This document shows positions 8,531 through 18,267 of a stretch of 37,471 bases of DNA, piece by piece. The notes below the pieces were generated by a model. The model was not told the origin of the DNA. It saw only the letters and a program-made list of their open reading frames with translations, and did no database searches. Source of the stretch: Candidatus Uhrbacteria bacterium (lineage in GTDB: Bacteria; Patescibacteriota; Patescibacteriia; UBA9934; GWF2-40-263); assembly GCA_016219925.1 (NCBI GenBank), contig JACRJU010000013.1:244472-281942 (forward strand), given 5' to 3'. A program made the position numbers and the translations under genes. Each line of letters opens with the position of its first letter. The first letter of the stretch is position 1.

Positions 8531-10324
8531 TTATTCAAAACGGATCGCTTGTCCGGGCTTGATGGTTCCCGTGGTCGGTTGCGGTTGCGGTGTTGATGTT
8601 GAAGGTGATGGCGATGATACAGGTGGTGGAGGTGCTGATGATGTTGGAGGTCTTGTTTCTCTCTTGTTGCGCTTGCGTTTTCGTTTTTTCTTGTCATTGA
8701 GTTCCCCCAATGAGAGCGGTTTCTCCTGTGTTTCTTTTTCGATCATGTGTCCGTCAGAAGGTCTGGCTGGCGGCGGAACGGGTGAAGGCGCAGGTGTCGG
8801 TGCAGGTACGGGCGTCGGAACCGATGCGGGTTTTTTCTTTCCGCTTTTTCGTTCCTCACGAACGATCTCAATGCAATCTTCGCAGTAAATCGGACGAGAA
8901 CGATCCAGCTCGACCGGCAGGACCATGTGTTTTTGACATCGCGTGCAATCGTACTCAAACTTGGGTTTTTTCGACTCCTTCGCCATTTTCTTTTTCTCTT
9001 CCGCTTCTTTCAGAAGCGTATCCATATCCATATCTTCCATCCCGCTCCATTTCAAAATTTTCTGCTCAATTTCCTCGCGCGGGTTCGCATAGCGTTCGCG
9101 AGAAACGCGAATCACCCGTTCCGCAGAAGCTGTGCGTTGTGAAATGGGTGGAAGCGTGATCGCAGAAAACGGTAAACTCGTGACCCCATCAATGAGTAAT
9201 TTGAGATAGACATTGTATTTCGGGAGATTGATGATGTCTTCCGGCAAAAATCGCGGAGTGAATTCTTTTTCCATGTAGAGCGCATCCGGCGAACCCACAC
9301 GGTAAGTGATGATGGTCCCAACGTTTCCAAATACCGCTTCACGCACCTCATCAGTCAATTGAGCGATATATTGATGGGCCATGGTCAAACAGAGCCGATA
9401 TTTTCGCGCTTCGGACAAGATTCCAGCAAACGATTCCACAGCAAAATTTTGAAATTCATCCACATAGAGATAGAAGTCCTTACGCTCAATTTCCGGAATA
9501 TCCACGCGCTCCATGGCGGAAAGCTGGAGTTTGGTAATAAGCAATCCTCCAAGCAATCGCGAGTTGTCTTCCCCAATACGGCCCTTGGACAAGTTTACAA
9601 TAAAAATTTTTCCCTCGTCCATAATGTTGCGGATGTGGATGGTTGATTTCACTTGCGCGACCATGTTGCGAATAACTGACGCGGACAAAAATTGACCAAT
9701 CTTGTTCTGAATAGGCGCCACGGCTTCCTGCGCGTACTTATCATTATATGCGGCAAACTCTTTGAGCCAGAATTGTTTGACCACCGGATCGGTGACATTC
9801 CCAACAATACGATTGCGGAAATCAACCTCTGCGAGCATGCGGTTGATGCCAAGCAGAGTCTGTCCGGGATTATCGAGCAGAGCCAAAATGGTGTTATTCA
9901 AAATATATTCCATGCGCGAAGACCACATGTTTTCCCAAATCTTTTTGAACACCCCCATCATTCCGCTTGCCACCAAATGTTTATGGCGCTCGCTTACCGC
10001 TTCTAAAATATTAAACCCAATCGGGAAGTCAACATCGGAGGGGTTGAAATACACCACGTCGTTAATGCGCCAACTCGGAATATAATCAATCAATTTTTCC
10101 GCCGTATCGCCATGCGGATCCACATAACAACAACCGTGCCCGGCGTAAATATCGGACAAAATAAAATTTTCGAGCAAGGTCGTCTTGCCCATACCGGTTT
10201 TTCCAATCACATACACATGACGCCGGCGATCGTCCGTTTTAATGCCAAACTTCGTCATCGAATTGCGAAAATTCGTTTTAGCGAAGTAGGTCACCTCTTG
10301 TTCATGATCGTGATTGTTGGACAT
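8531..10324 (-). CDS. TraG/VirB4-like (DUF87-type) ATPase with C-terminal Zn-ribbon and Pro-rich tail
   Basis: VIGKTGMGKTTLLEN Walker A, VDPHGDTAE, FYLYVDEFQNFAVESF Walker B, MAHQY; CTRCQK...CEDC zinc ribbon; low-complexity P/S/T/K/R tail. Confidence 0.85.
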   Translation of the reverse strand: MSNNHDHEQEVTYFAKTNFRNSMTKFGIKTDDRRRHVYVIGKTGMGKTTLLENFILSDIYAGHGCCYVDPHGDTAEKLIDYIPSWRINDVVYFNPSDVDFPIGFNILEAVSERHKHLVASGMMGVFKKIWENMWSSRMEYILNNTILALLDNPGQTLLGINRMLAEVDFRNRIVGNVTDPVVKQFWLKEFAAYNDKYAQEAVAPIQNKIGQFLSASVIRNMVAQVKSTIHIRNIMDEGKIFIVNLSKGRIGEDNSRLLGGLLITKLQLSAMERVDIPEIERKDFYLYVDEFQNFAVESFAGILSEARKYRLCLTMAHQYIAQLTDEVREAVFGNVGTIITYRVGSPDALYMEKEFTPRFLPEDIINLPKYNVYLKLLIDGVTSLPFSAITLPPISQRTASAERVIRVSRERYANPREEIEQKILKWSGMEDMDMDTLLKEAEEKKKMAKESKKPKFEYDCTRCQKHMVLPVELDRSRPIYCEDCIEIVREERKSGKKKPASVPTPVPAPTPAPSPVPPPARPSDGHMIEKETQEKPLSLGELNDKKKRKRKRNKRETRPPTSSAPPPPVSSPSPSTSTPQPQPTTGTIKPGQAIRFE

Positions 10325-10332
10325 AAAAGTTC

Positions 10333-11871
10333 CTATGTTGGCAAATTTGGAGGGACGAATGCGCCCTCGTTGGTGGAACTCGTTGGGGCTTGAACTTCTG
10401 GAACGATTGCCGAACCAATGGCATCGCGAGGCGGACGTTCGGAGGCATCTTCTTCCTGTTGCATTGAAGTCGGGATCTGTGGTGGCCCGATCTCTGGTTC
10501 AGGTTCCATAGCAAAATTGGGAAGAGTTTCCTCTGAAAGTGTAAACGGCAAACCAACAGGCGGCTCGGCGCGCCGCGCTTCAGCCTTTTTAACCAGAGGC
10601 GCTTTAATGCTAATTGCCGGGAAGTGCCAAAGAGAGGCAATTTCTTCAACATTAAGGAAGAACGGATCGGCCCCGACACCCCAGTTGCGAGTCATATACG
10701 CTTTCATAAGCGTCCGTTGTTTGCGCGTGTACACCCATCGCATCCAAAAATAGTCGTCCTTAGGAACCTGCGGAATGAACAAGGTAAACTTGTTCAAAGT
10801 GAGGTCTGCATATTGGTTCAGAATCCCTTTCACCATCGCCGTGCGTTCTACTTTCACAAACACATTTTTCTTCGCCACATATAAAATCCGAATTTTGGCC
10901 CCGAGCCCGACTTTCATGATTTTTTTATGGATAGCTTCGGCTTCTTTTGTTTCTTGAAGTGGCAGTAACACGTACGGTTCCTTCTTTTCTTCAGCTTCCA
11001 CTCCAAGTAGTCCGCTTAAATCCAAAGAGGTCGCATGAGCCAAAAATTCGATTGGCCAAGAAAGCGCCGTCTCAAGACCGGAAACAATTGCGCTCTTTTT
11101 CACTTTTTCTTTCTTTCCATACAGATCGTTCAAGTGTTTGATCCCGGATTTGATCCAATCATTTGTCGACGGCTGAACCAAAATTTGAATCCAGAAATGT
11201 TCTCCAGGGCGCATTTTCGCCATTTGTTCAAGGGTATAGCCAAGCGGATCCTTAATCTCTCCGGTCATTCGATCTTCAAAATCAACATAGGTCTTGATCG
11301 GAAAGTAGGTTGGCTTATCCAACGTAAATTCGGCGCCCCACATCTCATATTCGGCATTCGGAAATTCTGTCGAAAAAAATTTTGTGTAGTCTTCCACTTC
11401 CGAGATTTCAGCGTCCGGGTAATGCGCATAAATACCCGCTTCAATGACGTCACGAAAACGTGTTTGCGTGCGCACCAAAAATTGAATAAACCCTTCTGTT
11501 GAAATAATTTCAAACGAAAAAACCGGATGAAGCTTTCCGACGATCCAGGTTTCCTTCCACGTCAAGGTGGATTTAGCCCCGTAGAGATTTGAAAAAAGAT
11601 TCTCAAGCGCTTTTGGGGTTTGCTCGGTCATGGAGGGAACGTCGATGGCAAGCACAATAAATTTGTATGTCGACACATATTGGCCTTGGCGATTGTTCTG
11701 CCACATCATGACCATTCCCCAACCAACGGTTATCGCAATCGGGATCCAACCGAACCACAAAAAGAGATCAAAAAAAATGGCGTCGATTGGACGACTCAAA
11801 AAGGAGCTTGCAACCGGCGTCGCGGCTACCGTGGCCTGTTGAACGAGCGGTATCGCTAAAAGTGGCAGCAT
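10333..11871 (-). CDS. Conserved membrane protein, likely partner of the downstream TraG/VirB4-like ATPase
   Basis: N-terminal hydrophobic segment (AIFFDLFLWFGWIPIAITVGWGMVMM), soluble region and Pro-rich C-terminus; 8 nt from the ATPase gene, same strand. Confidence 0.65.
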   Translation of the reverse strand: MLPLLAIPLVQQATVAATPVASSFLSRPIDAIFFDLFLWFGWIPIAITVGWGMVMMWQNNRQGQYVSTYKFIVLAIDVPSMTEQTPKALENLFSNLYGAKSTLTWKETWIVGKLHPVFSFEIISTEGFIQFLVRTQTRFRDVIEAGIYAHYPDAEISEVEDYTKFFSTEFPNAEYEMWGAEFTLDKPTYFPIKTYVDFEDRMTGEIKDPLGYTLEQMAKMRPGEHFWIQILVQPSTNDWIKSGIKHLNDLYGKKEKVKKSAIVSGLETALSWPIEFLAHATSLDLSGLLGVEAEEKKEPYVLLPLQETKEAEAIHKKIMKVGLGAKIRILYVAKKNVFVKVERTAMVKGILNQYADLTLNKFTLFIPQVPKDDYFWMRWVYTRKQRTLMKAYMTRNWGVGADPFFLNVEEIASLWHFPAISIKAPLVKKAEARRAEPPVGLPFTLSEETLPNFAMEPEPEIGPPQIPTSMQQEEDASERPPRDAIGSAIVPEVQAPTSSTNEGAFVPPNLPT

Positions 11872-11928: not shown

Positions 11929-12810
11929 TTAGGAGCGCCGCTTTTCCCACACCACCAGCAACGGACTGGCAAGAAAAATAGATGAATAGGTTCCCGTAAA
12001 GATGCCGATCATCAGTGCCATTGCAAACGGGCGCGTGGTTTCTCCGCCGAAAAGAAAAATGGCCAAAAGAGCAAGCAATGTTGTAATGCTTGTGCTTAAA
12101 GATCGCCAAAGGGTTTGGTGAATACTTCTTTCGACAGTCGTTTCAAACTCTTGTGAAGCGTGGTGCAGAAGATTTTCGCGCGTCCGATCGAAAACAACCA
12201 CGGTATCGGTAATGGAATATCCCAGAATGGTCAGAATGGCCGCAACAAAAGCCGTGCCGACTTCCCAACCGAATAATTTTCCGAACAAAGCAAACGCTCC
12301 AAGCGGGATGATAACATCATGAAAGGCCGTCAAAATCGTGAGAAGACCATATTTCCACGAAGCAACCGGATCGGATACCTTGCGATAAGCCCACGCGACA
12401 TACAGACCGATTAAAACCAGGGTAATGACAACGCCGGTTGTTGCGGTTCGTTCCAACTCTTTACCGATCACCGGCCCAATGGAATCAAAGCGAGCTTCTG
12501 TGAGTTCACCCTTTGCGCGCAAAGCGCCTAACAATGTTTGGTGTTCCTGCTCGCTCAAAGATGGTAACCGAATAAGATACCCTTGCCCCGAGGATTGAAC
12601 AGTCACCTCTTTGTATCCGGCTTGCACCAAGACTTGGTCGACCTGTTCGCGAGCAACCGGCTGAGTGAAATTAACTTCCATGAGGCTTCCGCCGGTGAAA
12701 TCAATACCGAATCGCAGACCAAGCGTGGCGAGCAGAATAAGACTGGTCAAAACGAGAACCCCAGAAATGGAGAGCCAGATGGCCCGGTGAGGAATGATCG
12801 ATATGGTCAT
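11929..12810 (-). CDS. secF: Protein translocase subunit SecF
   Basis: LRFGIDFTGGSLMEV, TDTVVVFDRTRENL, six-TM arrangement. Confidence 0.95.
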   Translation of the reverse strand: MTISIIPHRAIWLSISGVLVLTSLILLATLGLRFGIDFTGGSLMEVNFTQPVAREQVDQVLVQAGYKEVTVQSSGQGYLIRLPSLSEQEHQTLLGALRAKGELTEARFDSIGPVIGKELERTATTGVVITLVLIGLYVAWAYRKVSDPVASWKYGLLTILTAFHDVIIPLGAFALFGKLFGWEVGTAFVAAILTILGYSITDTVVVFDRTRENLLHHASQEFETTVERSIHQTLWRSLSTSITTLLALLAIFLFGGETTRPFAMALMIGIFTGTYSSIFLASPLLVVWEKRRS

Positions 12811-12811
12811 A

Positions 12812-14818
12812 TCAGTTCGTCGGTTTCTTATTTCCAAACAACACGGGATGACGCGCCCATTTCCAAGCGGTCACATTGCGCAAATAAACGCGTGTAACGG
12901 TAATGGCCGTAAAGAGACTCAACACCACTCCAACGGAAAGGGTCAGAGCAAAGCCACGGATAAAACTTGAACTGAACCAATAGAGCACCGCCGCCGCGAT
13001 CAGGGTGGTGAGGTGACCATCACGAATAGCGGTCCATGCGCGAGTAAACCCTTCATCGATCGCTGATTGAAAATCACGCCCAGCGGCAAACTCTTCCTTC
13101 ATACGCGCGAAAATCAGCACGTTGGCATCGACCGCAATTCCGATCGACAACACTAATCCGGCAATACCGGCAAGGGTGATCGTCACGTCAAAAAACCGGT
13201 ATGCAGCCATATTAAGCGAGACAAACAATCCAAGCGCGACGACGGCGATGAGTCCTGGAAGGCGATAGGCAATCAGCATAAAAAGCGCGACCAGCAAAAA
13301 TCCAATGAGCGCGGCGCTCACGCTTTTTGCAAGCGAGATGGAACCAAGGGTTGGACCGACGGTTTGCTGAGATAGCAAGTTAATTGGAACCGGCAAGGCT
13401 CCGGCATTCAAGTTCTGCGCGAGGAGTTTGGCTTCATCGAGTGTAAAGTTTCCGGTGATGACCGCCTGTCCTCCGTAGATCGCTTGCTGAACAACCGGCG
13501 CGGACACCGGAACTCCATCCAAAAAGATCGCAATCTGTTGACCGACAAGACGTTCAGTGAGCTTGCCGAACAAATCTGCTCCTTCGCTATTGAAATCAAG
13601 GACAACATTAGGCACGTTGGTCTTTTGATCGAACTGAACCGTCGCGCGCTTCAATTGCTTTCCGGAAAGGGTGGTGTTCAACCAGTTCCCTTGTGGAGCG
13701 ACATCAGTCTCCGTCGTAAGTGGCATCAAAATGCGCTTAACTGTATATGACGGAACCGTGCGTTGAGCTTGCTTGTAAATAAGATGATACCCAAAGGGCG
13801 ATTCAATCACATCCGAAATGCTTCCGACTTTGAGCGCGCTCGCCGCTGTGGCAAAAGCCTCCACATAACGGTCCACGGTTCCCCAACCCAAGTCCTGATA
13901 ACCTTCAAGCTTGGAAAAGCCTTCTGGGGTCGCTTGAGATTTTAGCTGTTGGATCTTGGTGTTGGCTTCAATCTGTGGAATAGGTTTGCTACAACGCTCC
14001 TTGCCTTCGAAACACACGAGAACATGTCCGAGTTGCATTTCTTCTGCGGGCTCCTGTTTCTCATATCTAAAAATGTTGATCCCTTCATCGGTCTCCAATG
14101 TCGATGCGTATACGCGCCCGGGTTTGAGATGATTTTTTTCGATCACAATCTGGAAATCCCCATAGGGTGAGTTTCCTGTGATGTGTTCAAGAGTGGATTT
14201 TTCAAGAGGCACTCGGCTATTTTCTGTAATCAAGCCATCGAAATTTTCTCCTTTAAGAGTCCGACCTAAAACAGTTTGTGCCGCCTCCCGCTCTTTCGCA
14301 TTGGCCTGTTTGAACGCTGTTTTTTGATCGTCGCTCAAATCGTTTTGCGTAGTCTTCGCGGGTTCCTTAAATTCCAATACTGGCGTTTTGCCAATCTGAT
14401 CAATGGCTTGTTTGACATCCTGAATGCCGGCGAGTTCGATAATCAATCGATACGTGCCACCCGTTGTTGTCGTTTGAACGACAGGTTCGGAAACTCCAAA
14501 CGCATTTACGCGCCGCTCGATCACATTTTTTACCCCCTCAAGCGCGTCTGCTCGCTCACTCTCGGGGATCTGACTCATGTCGGCGTCATAAACAAGATGC
14601 GTCCCGCCTTGCAAATCAAGACCGAGCCGAAACGCGTTTTCAGAAAGCCGAACGGAGGCTGGAAGATGTGCCGCATTGACCGCGCGATTCCAGTACATCG
14701 GGAAATCGTAGCCGTAAAAAAGAACAGTCAGAACCAACAGAATGATCCCGACAATGCGCCGACCCCATGGGCTTTTTGGCTTGCGGGCGGTCTTTCTCTT
14801 AAGTTTCCATGTTTGCAT
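12812..14818 (-). CDS. secD: Protein translocase subunit SecD with parvulin-like insert
   Basis: RLGLDLQGGTHLVYDADM, LNAGALPVPI, IGIAVDANVLIFARMKEE. Start at 14818 (MQTWKLKRK), the ATG 9 nt after a TACACT -10. Confidence 0.95.
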   Translation of the reverse strand: MQTWKLKRKTARKPKSPWGRRIVGIILLVLTVLFYGYDFPMYWNRAVNAAHLPASVRLSENAFRLGLDLQGGTHLVYDADMSQIPESERADALEGVKNVIERRVNAFGVSEPVVQTTTTGGTYRLIIELAGIQDVKQAIDQIGKTPVLEFKEPAKTTQNDLSDDQKTAFKQANAKEREAAQTVLGRTLKGENFDGLITENSRVPLEKSTLEHITGNSPYGDFQIVIEKNHLKPGRVYASTLETDEGINIFRYEKQEPAEEMQLGHVLVCFEGKERCSKPIPQIEANTKIQQLKSQATPEGFSKLEGYQDLGWGTVDRYVEAFATAASALKVGSISDVIESPFGYHLIYKQAQRTVPSYTVKRILMPLTTETDVAPQGNWLNTTLSGKQLKRATVQFDQKTNVPNVVLDFNSEGADLFGKLTERLVGQQIAIFLDGVPVSAPVVQQAIYGGQAVITGNFTLDEAKLLAQNLNAGALPVPINLLSQQTVGPTLGSISLAKSVSAALIGFLLVALFMLIAYRLPGLIAVVALGLFVSLNMAAYRFFDVTITLAGIAGLVLSIGIAVDANVLIFARMKEEFAAGRDFQSAIDEGFTRAWTAIRDGHLTTLIAAAVLYWFSSSFIRGFALTLSVGVVLSLFTAITVTRVYLRNVTAWKWARHPVLFGNKKPTN

Positions 14819-14827
14819 ATCGGCAGA

Positions 14828-14856
14828 AGTGTAAAAAATTGTGGGAAATGATGCAA
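14828..14856 (-). promoter_or_regulatory. Promoter of secD: TTGCAT-N17-TACACT, 9 nt before ATG
   Basis: -35 at 14856-14851, -10 at 14833-14828. Confidence 0.5.
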
Positions 14857-14864
14857 GTGGACAG

Positions 14865-15025
14865 GTAAATGTTATACGTCCTGTTCGACGACATGCGCAG
14901 TCGGCCATTGCTCAACCATGGGGTTACCTCGTCGGTTCCGCCGACGAGCACTAAGCCGCCGAAATCATTCCATCTGTCTATTCATACGATTGGCGGCGGT
15001 CAAGAACAGGACGTATAACATTTAC
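14865..15025. repeat. 161-bp intergenic element bounded by perfect 22-bp inverted repeats
   Basis: gtaaatgttatacgtcctgttc (14865-14886) and its exact reverse complement gaacaggacgtataacatttac (15004-15025); inner hairpin CTCGTCGG-TTCCG-CCGACGAG. Confidence 0.85.
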
Positions 15026-15048: not shown

Positions 15049-15399
15049 TTAATTCGTCTTCTTGAAAGAGACCTTGAATATCGGATGCCAAGTCTGCTCA
15101 AACTCATCAACAATCTCGACCGTCTCTTCCTTCATGTACATATTTAATGCCACGTCGCTCAATAATTCTTCATCGGTTTGAATTTCCAACTTGAGCTCTT
15201 CTAATTCCAAAAAATCTGGACTTTGCCCGCGGATCGATTGTTCAATAGCTTTTTTCTCCTCACGAAGCGTTTTAGCCTCCTCAAGGATCTCTTGGTATCG
15301 CGTGTGATGCGCAAGTTCGTCCTTGAGCATCTGACGAATTTCTTTCTGACGTTTTTTACTTTCCTGAATCCGTTTGTAGACTTCGTCGAGTTGGGACAT
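15049..15399 (-). CDS. Hypothetical coiled-coil protein
   Basis: MSQLDEVYKRIQESKKRQKEIRQMLKDELAHHTRYQEILEEAKTLREEKKAIEQ; charged heptad-like composition. Confidence 0.65.
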   Translation of the reverse strand: MSQLDEVYKRIQESKKRQKEIRQMLKDELAHHTRYQEILEEAKTLREEKKAIEQSIRGQSPDFLELEELKLEIQTDEELLSDVALNMYMKEETVEIVDEFEQTWHPIFKVSFKKTN

Positions 15400-15435: not shown

Positions 15436-18228
15436 TTAGGAAGAAAGAATCAAATGACATTTCTTATACTTTTTGCCACTGCCGCATGGACATGGATCAT
15501 TACGACCGACTTTTTCCTCCGCATGCCCCGCCCCGCCCGTGCTTCCCCCCTTGTCCGCTCCACTCATCACCACCCCTTTACGTTCAAACACCGATTGGGC
15601 GAGTTGGACCTGCACGCGCATATCAACCGCATGCTTGAGAAATTTGAAAAACGAATACGTGATCTCGCGATTGATTGCCCCAAGGAGTTCTTGATACAAC
15701 ACGTACCCTTCTTTTTTATATTCAATAAGCGGATCGCGCTGGCCATATCCACGTAGACCAATGCCGGTGCGCAACGCCCCCATCGCCGCCAAGTGATCAA
15801 TCCACAGCACATCGACCGCGCGTAAAATCACCCCACGCTCAATCTGATGCAACTCAGATTTCTCATCAAACAACGTTGAGACCTGATCATAATACGCACT
15901 CATCATTTCCATAACGGCTCCAATCAGGCGTGTGCGTTTTGCCGCCAAATCATTTTTATCGCCTGCGGAGGATTCTTCAATCTGACGCAACACCTCTTTC
16001 TGCTCATTCGAAAGCGGCAAAATAGTTCCGATGGTGTCGATGATCTCTTTTTGTTCAACCGGAACATTTTCCGGTTTCTGATCAGGCTCCACTGTCACAA
16101 TGCGTGTCGCGTCGGCCGTTGGAACTTGAATGCCCACCTCGCCCATATGAAAGAGCACCACTTGTTCCACTTCCCCTTCGATAATATCCAAAATGCGCTC
16201 GCGCAACTTTTCCGGCTCATGAGCAAACGTATCAAGCACTTCTCGTCGGCGCGCATAAATCACCTCACGATGTTTGTTGAGCACGTCATCATATTCGAGC
16301 AGATGTTTACGTGTATCAAAGTGATGGCCCTCAACGCGCTCCTGGGCTTTTTCAATCGAACGCGTGACCATGCCATTTTCAATCGGCATGTCTTCGGGAA
16401 TACCTAAACGATCCATCATCCCCTTGGTACGATCCGATCCAAAAATGCGCATCAAGTCATCTTCCATGGAAATATAAAACTGGGTTGATCCCGGATCGCC
16501 TTGGCGACCAGACCGTCCGCGTAACTGATTATCAATGCGACGCGAGTCATGCCGCTCCGTGCCAATCACATGAAGACCTCCGGCTGTTTTAACTGTACCT
16601 TCATCTTCAGCGACAGGGGGATTGCCTCCTAAACGGATGTCCACACCACGGCCAGCCATGTTTGTGGCAATGGTCACAGCTCCCGGTCGTCCAGCTTGCG
16701 CGATGATTTCCGCCTCACGCGCGTGGTTTTTCGCATTCAAAATTTCATGGCGCACGCCAGCCGCTGACAAAAGCTCCGAGAGCATCTCATTTTTTTCCAC
16801 GGAGATGGTTCCCACCAAAATCGGCTGACCTTTCTGTTGCAATTGTTTGATCTCTTGCACAACGGCCTGAAACTTTCCGCGTTCCGTTTTATAAATGCGA
16901 TCTTGCAAATCCGCGCGTGCCACCGGCACATTGGTTGGAATTTCCGTGACTTCCAAATTGTAAATTTTGGCAAATTCTTCCGCTTCAGTTGCGGCCGTTC
17001 CAGTCATTCCGGACAACTTGTCATACATGCGGAATAAATTTTGAAACGTGATGGTTGCAAGTGTTTGGCTTTCTTTTTGGATTTCCACTCCTTCTTTGGC
17101 TTCGATCGCTTGATGGATCCCTTCCGAAAATCGTCGGCCGGGCATGATACGACCCGTAAATTCATCCACAATGATCACCTCTCCCTCTTTGACGATATAA
17201 TGAACATCTTTTTTATAGTTCGCCATGGCCCGCAAAGCGGTGTCGGCAAAACGCGCGTACAAGCCGGAACCTGCCGCATAGAGATTATCAATCCCGATCG
17301 CCTTTTCTACTCGCTCAATGCCCGCATCGGTAAATGTGGCCGTACGCAATTTTTCATCGACGTTGTAATCATCGTTTTCTTTAAGCGTGGCTACGATTTG
17401 GGAGAAGCGGTGGTAAAGCTCGTTGGATTCTTCCGCAGGAGCGGAAATGATCAGTGGTGTGCGCGCTTCATCAATTAAGATAGAGTCGATTTCGTCCACA
17501 ATGGCGAAATGCAAATCACGCATGACCATCTGATCAAGCGTTTGCGCCATGTTGTCGCGCAAATAATCAAACCCGAATTGATTATTCGTTCCGTAGGTGA
17601 TATCCGCGCCATAGGCCTCTTTGCGCGGAACCGGGCGCAAATAATCTTCACGCACACGGAATGATCCCACTTCGTCGCGTGTTTCATCCGCGGCTTGCTC
17701 CTCCACAGAGCCTTCTTCATGTTTATAATTCGGATCGTACACAAATCCGCCTTCGTGCTGGACACAACCAACACTCAAACCGAGTGCATGAAACACTTGC
17801 CCCATCCACACCGCATCGCGACGCGCCAAATAATCGTTTACGGTAACAAGATGACAGCCTTTGCCTGTGAGGGCGTTGAGATATAACGGCGCGGTTGACG
17901 TGAGTGTTTTTCCTTCACCGGTGCGCATTTCCGCAATGCCGCCTTTATGCATAACCAATCCTCCCATGAGCTGAACATCAAAGTGACGTTGGCCGAGAGT
18001 TCGCTTGGCCGTTTCGCGCACTACGGCAAACGCTTCATCGGTGATCGCATCGAGCGATTCGCCCGCAAGGAGACGCTCCTTGAACGAAACGGTTTTGGTT
18101 TTAAGCTCCTCATCCGTCAGAGCAGAAACCTGTGGTTCAAGAGCTGTCATGCTATCCACTTCGCGCTGTAAATCCGAAAGGACTTTTTTATTGGGATCTC
18201 CAAAGAGAATCTTCAAAAATTTCGACAT
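15436..18228 (-). CDS. secA: Preprotein translocase ATPase SecA
   Basis: MRTGEGKT, DEIDSILIDEARTPLIISAP, TNMAGRGVDIRLGG, C-terminal SEC-C motif VGRNDPCPCGSGKKYKKCH. Confidence 0.98.
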   Translation of the reverse strand: MSKFLKILFGDPNKKVLSDLQREVDSMTALEPQVSALTDEELKTKTVSFKERLLAGESLDAITDEAFAVVRETAKRTLGQRHFDVQLMGGLVMHKGGIAEMRTGEGKTLTSTAPLYLNALTGKGCHLVTVNDYLARRDAVWMGQVFHALGLSVGCVQHEGGFVYDPNYKHEEGSVEEQAADETRDEVGSFRVREDYLRPVPRKEAYGADITYGTNNQFGFDYLRDNMAQTLDQMVMRDLHFAIVDEIDSILIDEARTPLIISAPAEESNELYHRFSQIVATLKENDDYNVDEKLRTATFTDAGIERVEKAIGIDNLYAAGSGLYARFADTALRAMANYKKDVHYIVKEGEVIIVDEFTGRIMPGRRFSEGIHQAIEAKEGVEIQKESQTLATITFQNLFRMYDKLSGMTGTAATEAEEFAKIYNLEVTEIPTNVPVARADLQDRIYKTERGKFQAVVQEIKQLQQKGQPILVGTISVEKNEMLSELLSAAGVRHEILNAKNHAREAEIIAQAGRPGAVTIATNMAGRGVDIRLGGNPPVAEDEGTVKTAGGLHVIGTERHDSRRIDNQLRGRSGRQGDPGSTQFYISMEDDLMRIFGSDRTKGMMDRLGIPEDMPIENGMVTRSIEKAQERVEGHHFDTRKHLLEYDDVLNKHREVIYARRREVLDTFAHEPEKLRERILDIIEGEVEQVVLFHMGEVGIQVPTADATRIVTVEPDQKPENVPVEQKEIIDTIGTILPLSNEQKEVLRQIEESSAGDKNDLAAKRTRLIGAVMEMMSAYYDQVSTLFDEKSELHQIERGVILRAVDVLWIDHLAAMGALRTGIGLRGYGQRDPLIEYKKEGYVLYQELLGAINREITYSFFKFLKHAVDMRVQVQLAQSVFERKGVVMSGADKGGSTGGAGHAEEKVGRNDPCPCGSGKKYKKCHLILSS

Positions 18229-18238
18229 AGACCGCGGT

Positions 18239-18267
18239 ATTATGCGCTGGATGTGAAAAAAAAACAA
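18239..18267 (-). promoter_or_regulatory. Promoter of secA: TTGTTT-N17-CATAAT, 10 nt before ATG
   Basis: -35 at 18267-18262, -10 at 18244-18239, ATG at 18228. Confidence 0.55.

Follow-up and report, generated by a model that had tools for sequence, protein, structure and literature searches.

Parvulin domains at the P1 base/head junction of SecD in a class of Patescibacteria, with a predicted nested and circularly permuted arrangement

The secD gene of a Candidatus Uhrbacteria bacterium raises the question of how parvulin-type prolyl isomerase sequence is accommodated within a protein export motor, and what it might do there. The gene lies in a stretch of 37,471 nucleotides (the window), between secA upstream and secF downstream, with all three genes running in a single direction (Table 1). 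Between secA and secD, positions 15049-15399 (minus strand) encode a charged, coiled-coil-like protein of 116 residues that belongs to no known family, and two genes come directly after secF, one for a TrwB/VirD4-like type IV coupling ATPase (8531-10324, minus strand) and one for a 512-residue protein lacking a Pfam match (10333-11871, minus strand). NCBIfam, Pfam, and PDB searches identify the secD product as a true SecD. The Pfam matches to the P1 base, P1 head, GG motif, and RND-type transmembrane domain (PF21760, PF22599, PF07549, and PF02355) all exceed their cut-offs, and the motor aspartate Asp594, the transmembrane residue of the VDxNV motif, is invariant in the SecD alignment. The start of the protein is probably Met31 (about position 14818), because relatives begin with MQTWK and residues 1-32 are modelled with a pLDDT below 50.

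The insert of this SecD is 228 residues long and separates the P1 base from the P1 head, a junction that in ordinary SecDs of the phylum mostly measures 18-30 residues. A preliminary description of the window had placed the parvulin sequence in lieu of the P1 head. This is not borne out, since the head profile is matched separately, from its position 19 to its end, downstream of the insert; together with the short linker of ordinary SecDs, this match indicates that the head is retained and that the insert occupies the base/head junction. Replacement of the head is thus ruled out. The interval originally singled out (13760-14310, residues about 200-383) falls wholly within the insert, and every motif quoted for it is present. 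The same junction is an insertion hot spot in other phyla (L278-L296; Bacteroidota and others), in which inserts reach ~174 residues and have no parvulin match.

Table 1. Features of the secD locus. Positions are those of the window; residues are those of the SecD open reading frame.
Feature	Positions	Strand	Residues	Evidence and remarks
secF	11929..12837	-		PF02355 E 1.2e-53; overlaps the secD end by 26 bases
secD ORF	12812..14908	-	698 aa	TIGR01129 372.6 bits (cut-off 244.4)
SecD P1 head	13388..13675	-	412-507	PF22599 E 1.3e-29, profile positions 19-114 of 114
Whole insert at base/head junction	13676..14359	-	184-411	Gap from PF21760 end (183) to PF22599 start (412)
C-terminal strand of outer parvulin (permuted first strand, SYTVKRILM)	13718..13753	-	~386-397	AF2 strand
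Inner parvulin, canonical order (HVLV strand, helices, DLGW, GYHLIYK)	13754..14053	-	286-385	PF00639, PDB, AF2 model
His375, second signature histidine (GYHLI)	13784..13786	-	375	Invariant in nested relatives
His295, first signature histidine (GHVLV)	14024..14026	-	295	Invariant in nested relatives
Outer parvulin, helix 1 to strand 4	14057..14341	-	190-284	Parvulin profile, AF2 model; signature histidines lost
SecD P1 base, N-terminal part	14360..14635	-	~92-183	PF07549 and PF21760 matches; GG motif RLGLDLQGG, SecD_1st
secA	15436..18267	-		SecA_DEAD E 2.7e-123; upstream of secD

The insert harbors two parvulin copies, referred to as inner and outer. The inner copy is readily recognized: with the window SecD as query, Pfam returns Rotamase (PF00639) with an E value of 5.2e-9 and 37.4 bits against a cut-off of 21.7, as well as Rotamase_3 (E 2.2e-7) and Rotamase_2 (E 1.2e-6), while a phmmer search of the PDB returns PrsA (6vj4, E 1.6e-8) and SurA (1m5y, E 2.3e-6). 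The SurA match improves to 3.3e-9 when the inner domain is the sole query. His295 and His375, which we take to correspond to the signature histidines His59 and His157 of Pin1, are invariant in the 50 aligned nested relatives, and the pair is His/His in all 87 distinct nested SecDs. This confirms the earlier proposal of a parvulin that keeps the two signature histidines. Just after the HILV strand of this domain lies a pair of cysteines, Cys299 and Cys306 (window positions 13991-14014); a cysteine four residues after the histidine and a second one shortly thereafter occur in 76 of the 87 nested relatives, and the pair could possibly form a disulfide or a metal site.

The outer copy is more divergent: against the parvulin profile, that of the window scores 14 bits and those of relatives reach 66, and in two of the latter (G113 and G098) it exceeds the PF00639 cut-off. 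On these profile scores, we regard the outer copy as a genuine parvulin homologue. It lacks both histidines in 79 of the 87 distinct nested SecDs. Many relatives contain a single domain instead, in an insert of 125-183 residues whose elements follow the order helix 1, DLGW, GYHII, hairpin, and HILI. Of the 61 rows in the single class, the histidines of strand 4 and of the displaced C-terminal strand 1 are both retained in 57, that is, all of the single-domain relatives in which the C-terminal strand is present. The four exceptions comprise three outer-only proteins (L062, L063, and L242) and an inner-only one (L230).

The catalytic competence of the module appears to vary. A loop of ~11 residues preceding GGDLGW, which reads like STDPSAASNGG, is present in 83 distinct nested SecDs and missing from the window protein and its nearest relatives (L003-L006). 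This loop presumably holds the active-site position occupied by Cys113 in Pin1 and by an aspartate in PrsA. In Bacillus subtilis PrsA, activity falls by about half upon the D154A substitution (PMC2678132), and the residue lost with the SecD loop appears, from the motif alignment, to be at the same position as D154. Because the third active-site position is lost with the loop, full PPIase activity of the window protein is doubtful, and this SecD may itself catalyse only weakly or act as a binder. For the class as a whole, the inner domain is the putative catalytic copy, and the outer one may have become a scaffold.

In Escherichia coli, the P1 head of SecD binds substrate, and its movements are linked to the proton motive force (PMC11470409, PMC9987972, PMC9643414). 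PpiD contacts this head (PMC11470409), and SurA binds the holo-translocon, its PPIase domains having been modelled on the head (PMC9987972). In view of these contacts, a parvulin covalently attached at the junction would most simply do the same job in cis. On balance, we consider it probable that the nested module binds the preprotein and isomerises or holds its prolyl segments. Situated next to the P1 head, it would bind the emerging chain and isomerise, or at least hold, prolyl segments during the pull exerted by the proton-driven head. In E. coli, PpiD and SurA dock on the head to act in trans; here the same would be accomplished in cis. By analogy, the module is most likely a cis-tethered equivalent of these proteins at the translocon exit.

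The parallel has limits. The window SecD shares with the structurally characterized SecD and SecDF proteins (Thermus 3aqp, Deinococcus 5xan, and E. coli 5mg3) the P1 base, the P1 head, the GG motif, and the transmembrane domain with its VDxNV aspartate, and its SecF partner is a separate protein as in E. coli. However, the base/head linker of the known SecDs is short, where the window SecD has two parvulin domains in 228 residues. PpiD, which in E. coli acts with YfgM, likewise contains a parvulin, sits at the Sec translocon, contacts the P1 head, and assists late translocation (PMC9643414, PMC11470409). It is nevertheless a protein apart from SecD, anchored in the membrane and equipped with a chaperone domain of its own, whereas the parvulin described here is part of SecD. 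SurA and PrsA have the same parvulin domain, and SurA also has two, modelled on the P1 head (PMC9987972). In contrast to these proteins, SecD lacks the SurA_N chaperone domain (no Pfam match in the window protein), and its outer copy is predicted to be permuted and nested around the inner one.

Alternatively, the module could be a non-catalytic chaperone or spacer, its parvulin fold binding or guiding the nascent chain or merely enlarging P1. We think this unlikely, though it deserves serious consideration: the active-site loop is deleted in the lineage of the window, the outer copy has lost its histidines, the outer-only SecDs persist without a histidine pair, and unrelated inserts of up to ~174 residues are found at the same site in other phyla. 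However, invariance of the inner pair in 87/87 nested proteins and retention of both histidines in 57 single-domain forms amount to more conservation than a spacer needs.

The arrangement of the two copies differs from that first suggested. The strand order of the outer domain is non-canonical, with strand 1 at its C-terminal end, where SYTVKRILM equals the SHILI/RHILI of the single-domain relatives. The preliminary description had recognized a degenerate second copy that had lost its first histidine-bearing strand; the copy and its degeneracy stand, but the strand is not lost and lies C-terminal to the other copy. An AlphaFold2 model of the window SecD, built from 57 sequences, has a mean pLDDT of 89.8 and mostly about 92-98 in the insert. 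When the whole model was compared with the PDB by Foldseek, the 50 matches listed were SecDF and RND transporters, none of them to the insert separately. Two strands of the model, 277-298 and 373-395, are very long (22-23 residues) and devoid of turns, the latter continuing directly from inner strand 4. The halves of the first correspond to outer strand 4 and inner strand 1, and those of the second to inner strand 4 and outer strand 1; their pairing is deduced from the DSSP string. The natural reading of these unbroken strands is a circularly permuted outer parvulin with the inner parvulin set into the tip of its hairpin; a canonical domain is thus predicted to be enclosed by a permuted one, and a continuous two-stranded ribbon would join the two.

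The single-domain relative L050, modelled from 16 sequences, has a pLDDT of mostly 91-96 in its insert, and its strands 249-263 and 266-279 form a hairpin; in this model, the domain is a permuted parvulin. Natural removals of parvulin units fit the nesting, as the inner unit is cleanly missing from L062 and L063, and L230 consists of the inner unit alone. Two permuted parvulins could also stand side by side in tandem, each completed by the following strand, since the linear order of elements is identical in both topologies and single-domain relatives use the following strand in this way. This arrangement is improbable. A simple tandem repeat is disfavored by the unbroken modelled strands of 22-23 residues at both junctions, with no hairpins, and the histidines are kept at inner strands 1 and 4 and lost together from outer strands 4 and 1. 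Co-loss of the outer histidines has a Fisher p of 1e-4, representing 2-3 independent pairs on the tree and not significant after tree correction. An extension of the nested reading, in which Patescibacteria have a lineage of permuted parvulins, both free-standing and within SecD, the SecD member acquired a second parvulin at its hairpin tip, and the ribbon, by linking a prolyl isomerase to the proton-driven P1 hinge, mechanically couples isomerisation or chain grip to pulling, is tentative and, in our view, rather doubtful.

The nested architecture occurs in all 36 SecDs extracted from the family of the window, which rules out an artefact of one assembly. A survey of SecD architecture, as the preliminary description had recommended, finds the module also in 104 of the 106 SecDs from the remainder of the host's class (45 nested, 55 single, 3 outer-only, 1 inner-only, and 2 with none). 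Within the class, L049 and L243 lack the whole module. Three proteins of fused SecDF length (L084, L066, and L067; 1013-1053 residues) also have nested parvulins. In a sample of 287 genomes from the phylum, a profile spanning parvulin and head gives near end-to-end matches in 25 genomes beyond the class, which belong to eight families. Where records containing the fusion are named, they are Candidatus Magasanikbacteria, Falkowbacteria, Uhrbacteria, and Parcubacteria-group MAGs, suggesting the class ABY1. Horizontal presence outside the phylum was rejected: in a scan of genome contigs, SecD and parvulin share one ORF only in Patescibacteria records, and the contig matches from elsewhere are parvulin proteins with no SecD in the same ORF. 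In two Chlorobiaceae loci (L145 and L161), secD/secF are closely followed, on the same strand, by a gene containing a parvulin; this association resembles the fusion but is weaker.

The large inserts common at this site in Bacteroidota and other phyla might suggest that the P1 head has undergone an ordinary expansion and that the likeness to parvulin is superficial. This reading has a negligible probability and is refuted by the Pfam cut-offs passed, the PrsA and SurA matches in the PDB, the invariant histidines, the separate intact head, and the lack of a parvulin-profile match in 25 comparator SecDs from other phyla.

A tree of the SecD core was built from 132 rows with the insert excluded; it is weakly supported at depth, and the direction of change is not readable from it. 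On this tree, the architecture requires 19 changes compared with 57 in shuffles. Nested and single forms are interleaved; the inner or outer unit has therefore probably been gained or lost repeatedly.

A possible source of the outer domain exists within the phylum. Its free-standing SurA/PrsA-like proteins (L001 and L308-L320) mostly share the permuted order, running from helix 1 to strand 4 (GYHII), a hairpin, and a HILI strand, but they have a SurA_N-like domain, are not fused to SecD, and contain no nested second parvulin. In the set examined, part of which was found with a profile favoring the permuted order, HILI follows strand 4 in 21 proteins and precedes it in 8 (5 free-standing and 3 SecD proteins). 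L321 and L322 have the canonical parvulin order, as do single-domain parvulins of other phyla. The permuted order of the free-standing proteins suggests that the SecD outer domain may stem from that family. One member, with a SurA_N domain, is encoded in the host genome itself (L001:808-1878, plus strand), and SecD is thus not the only PPIase of this genome.

SecD and parvulins are both known families. The literature search returned no paper on a SecD-parvulin fusion, its nesting, or a circularly permuted parvulin, and related searches returned only interactions in trans. In E. coli, whether periplasmic PPIases act on the chain while SecDF pulls is an open question, the contact being in trans and modelled or crosslinked. 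The natural covalent fusion, present in nearly every SecD of a class, is evolutionary evidence of an independent kind that a parvulin cooperates with the P1 head, and it provides a single-chain protein with which this cooperation can be tested. A circularly permuted, nested parvulin would be an unusual arrangement for a small and well-studied fold. Since the parvulin is fused to SecD, the export motor of a large group of ultra-small bacteria may help new proteins to fold as well as pulling them out of the cell.
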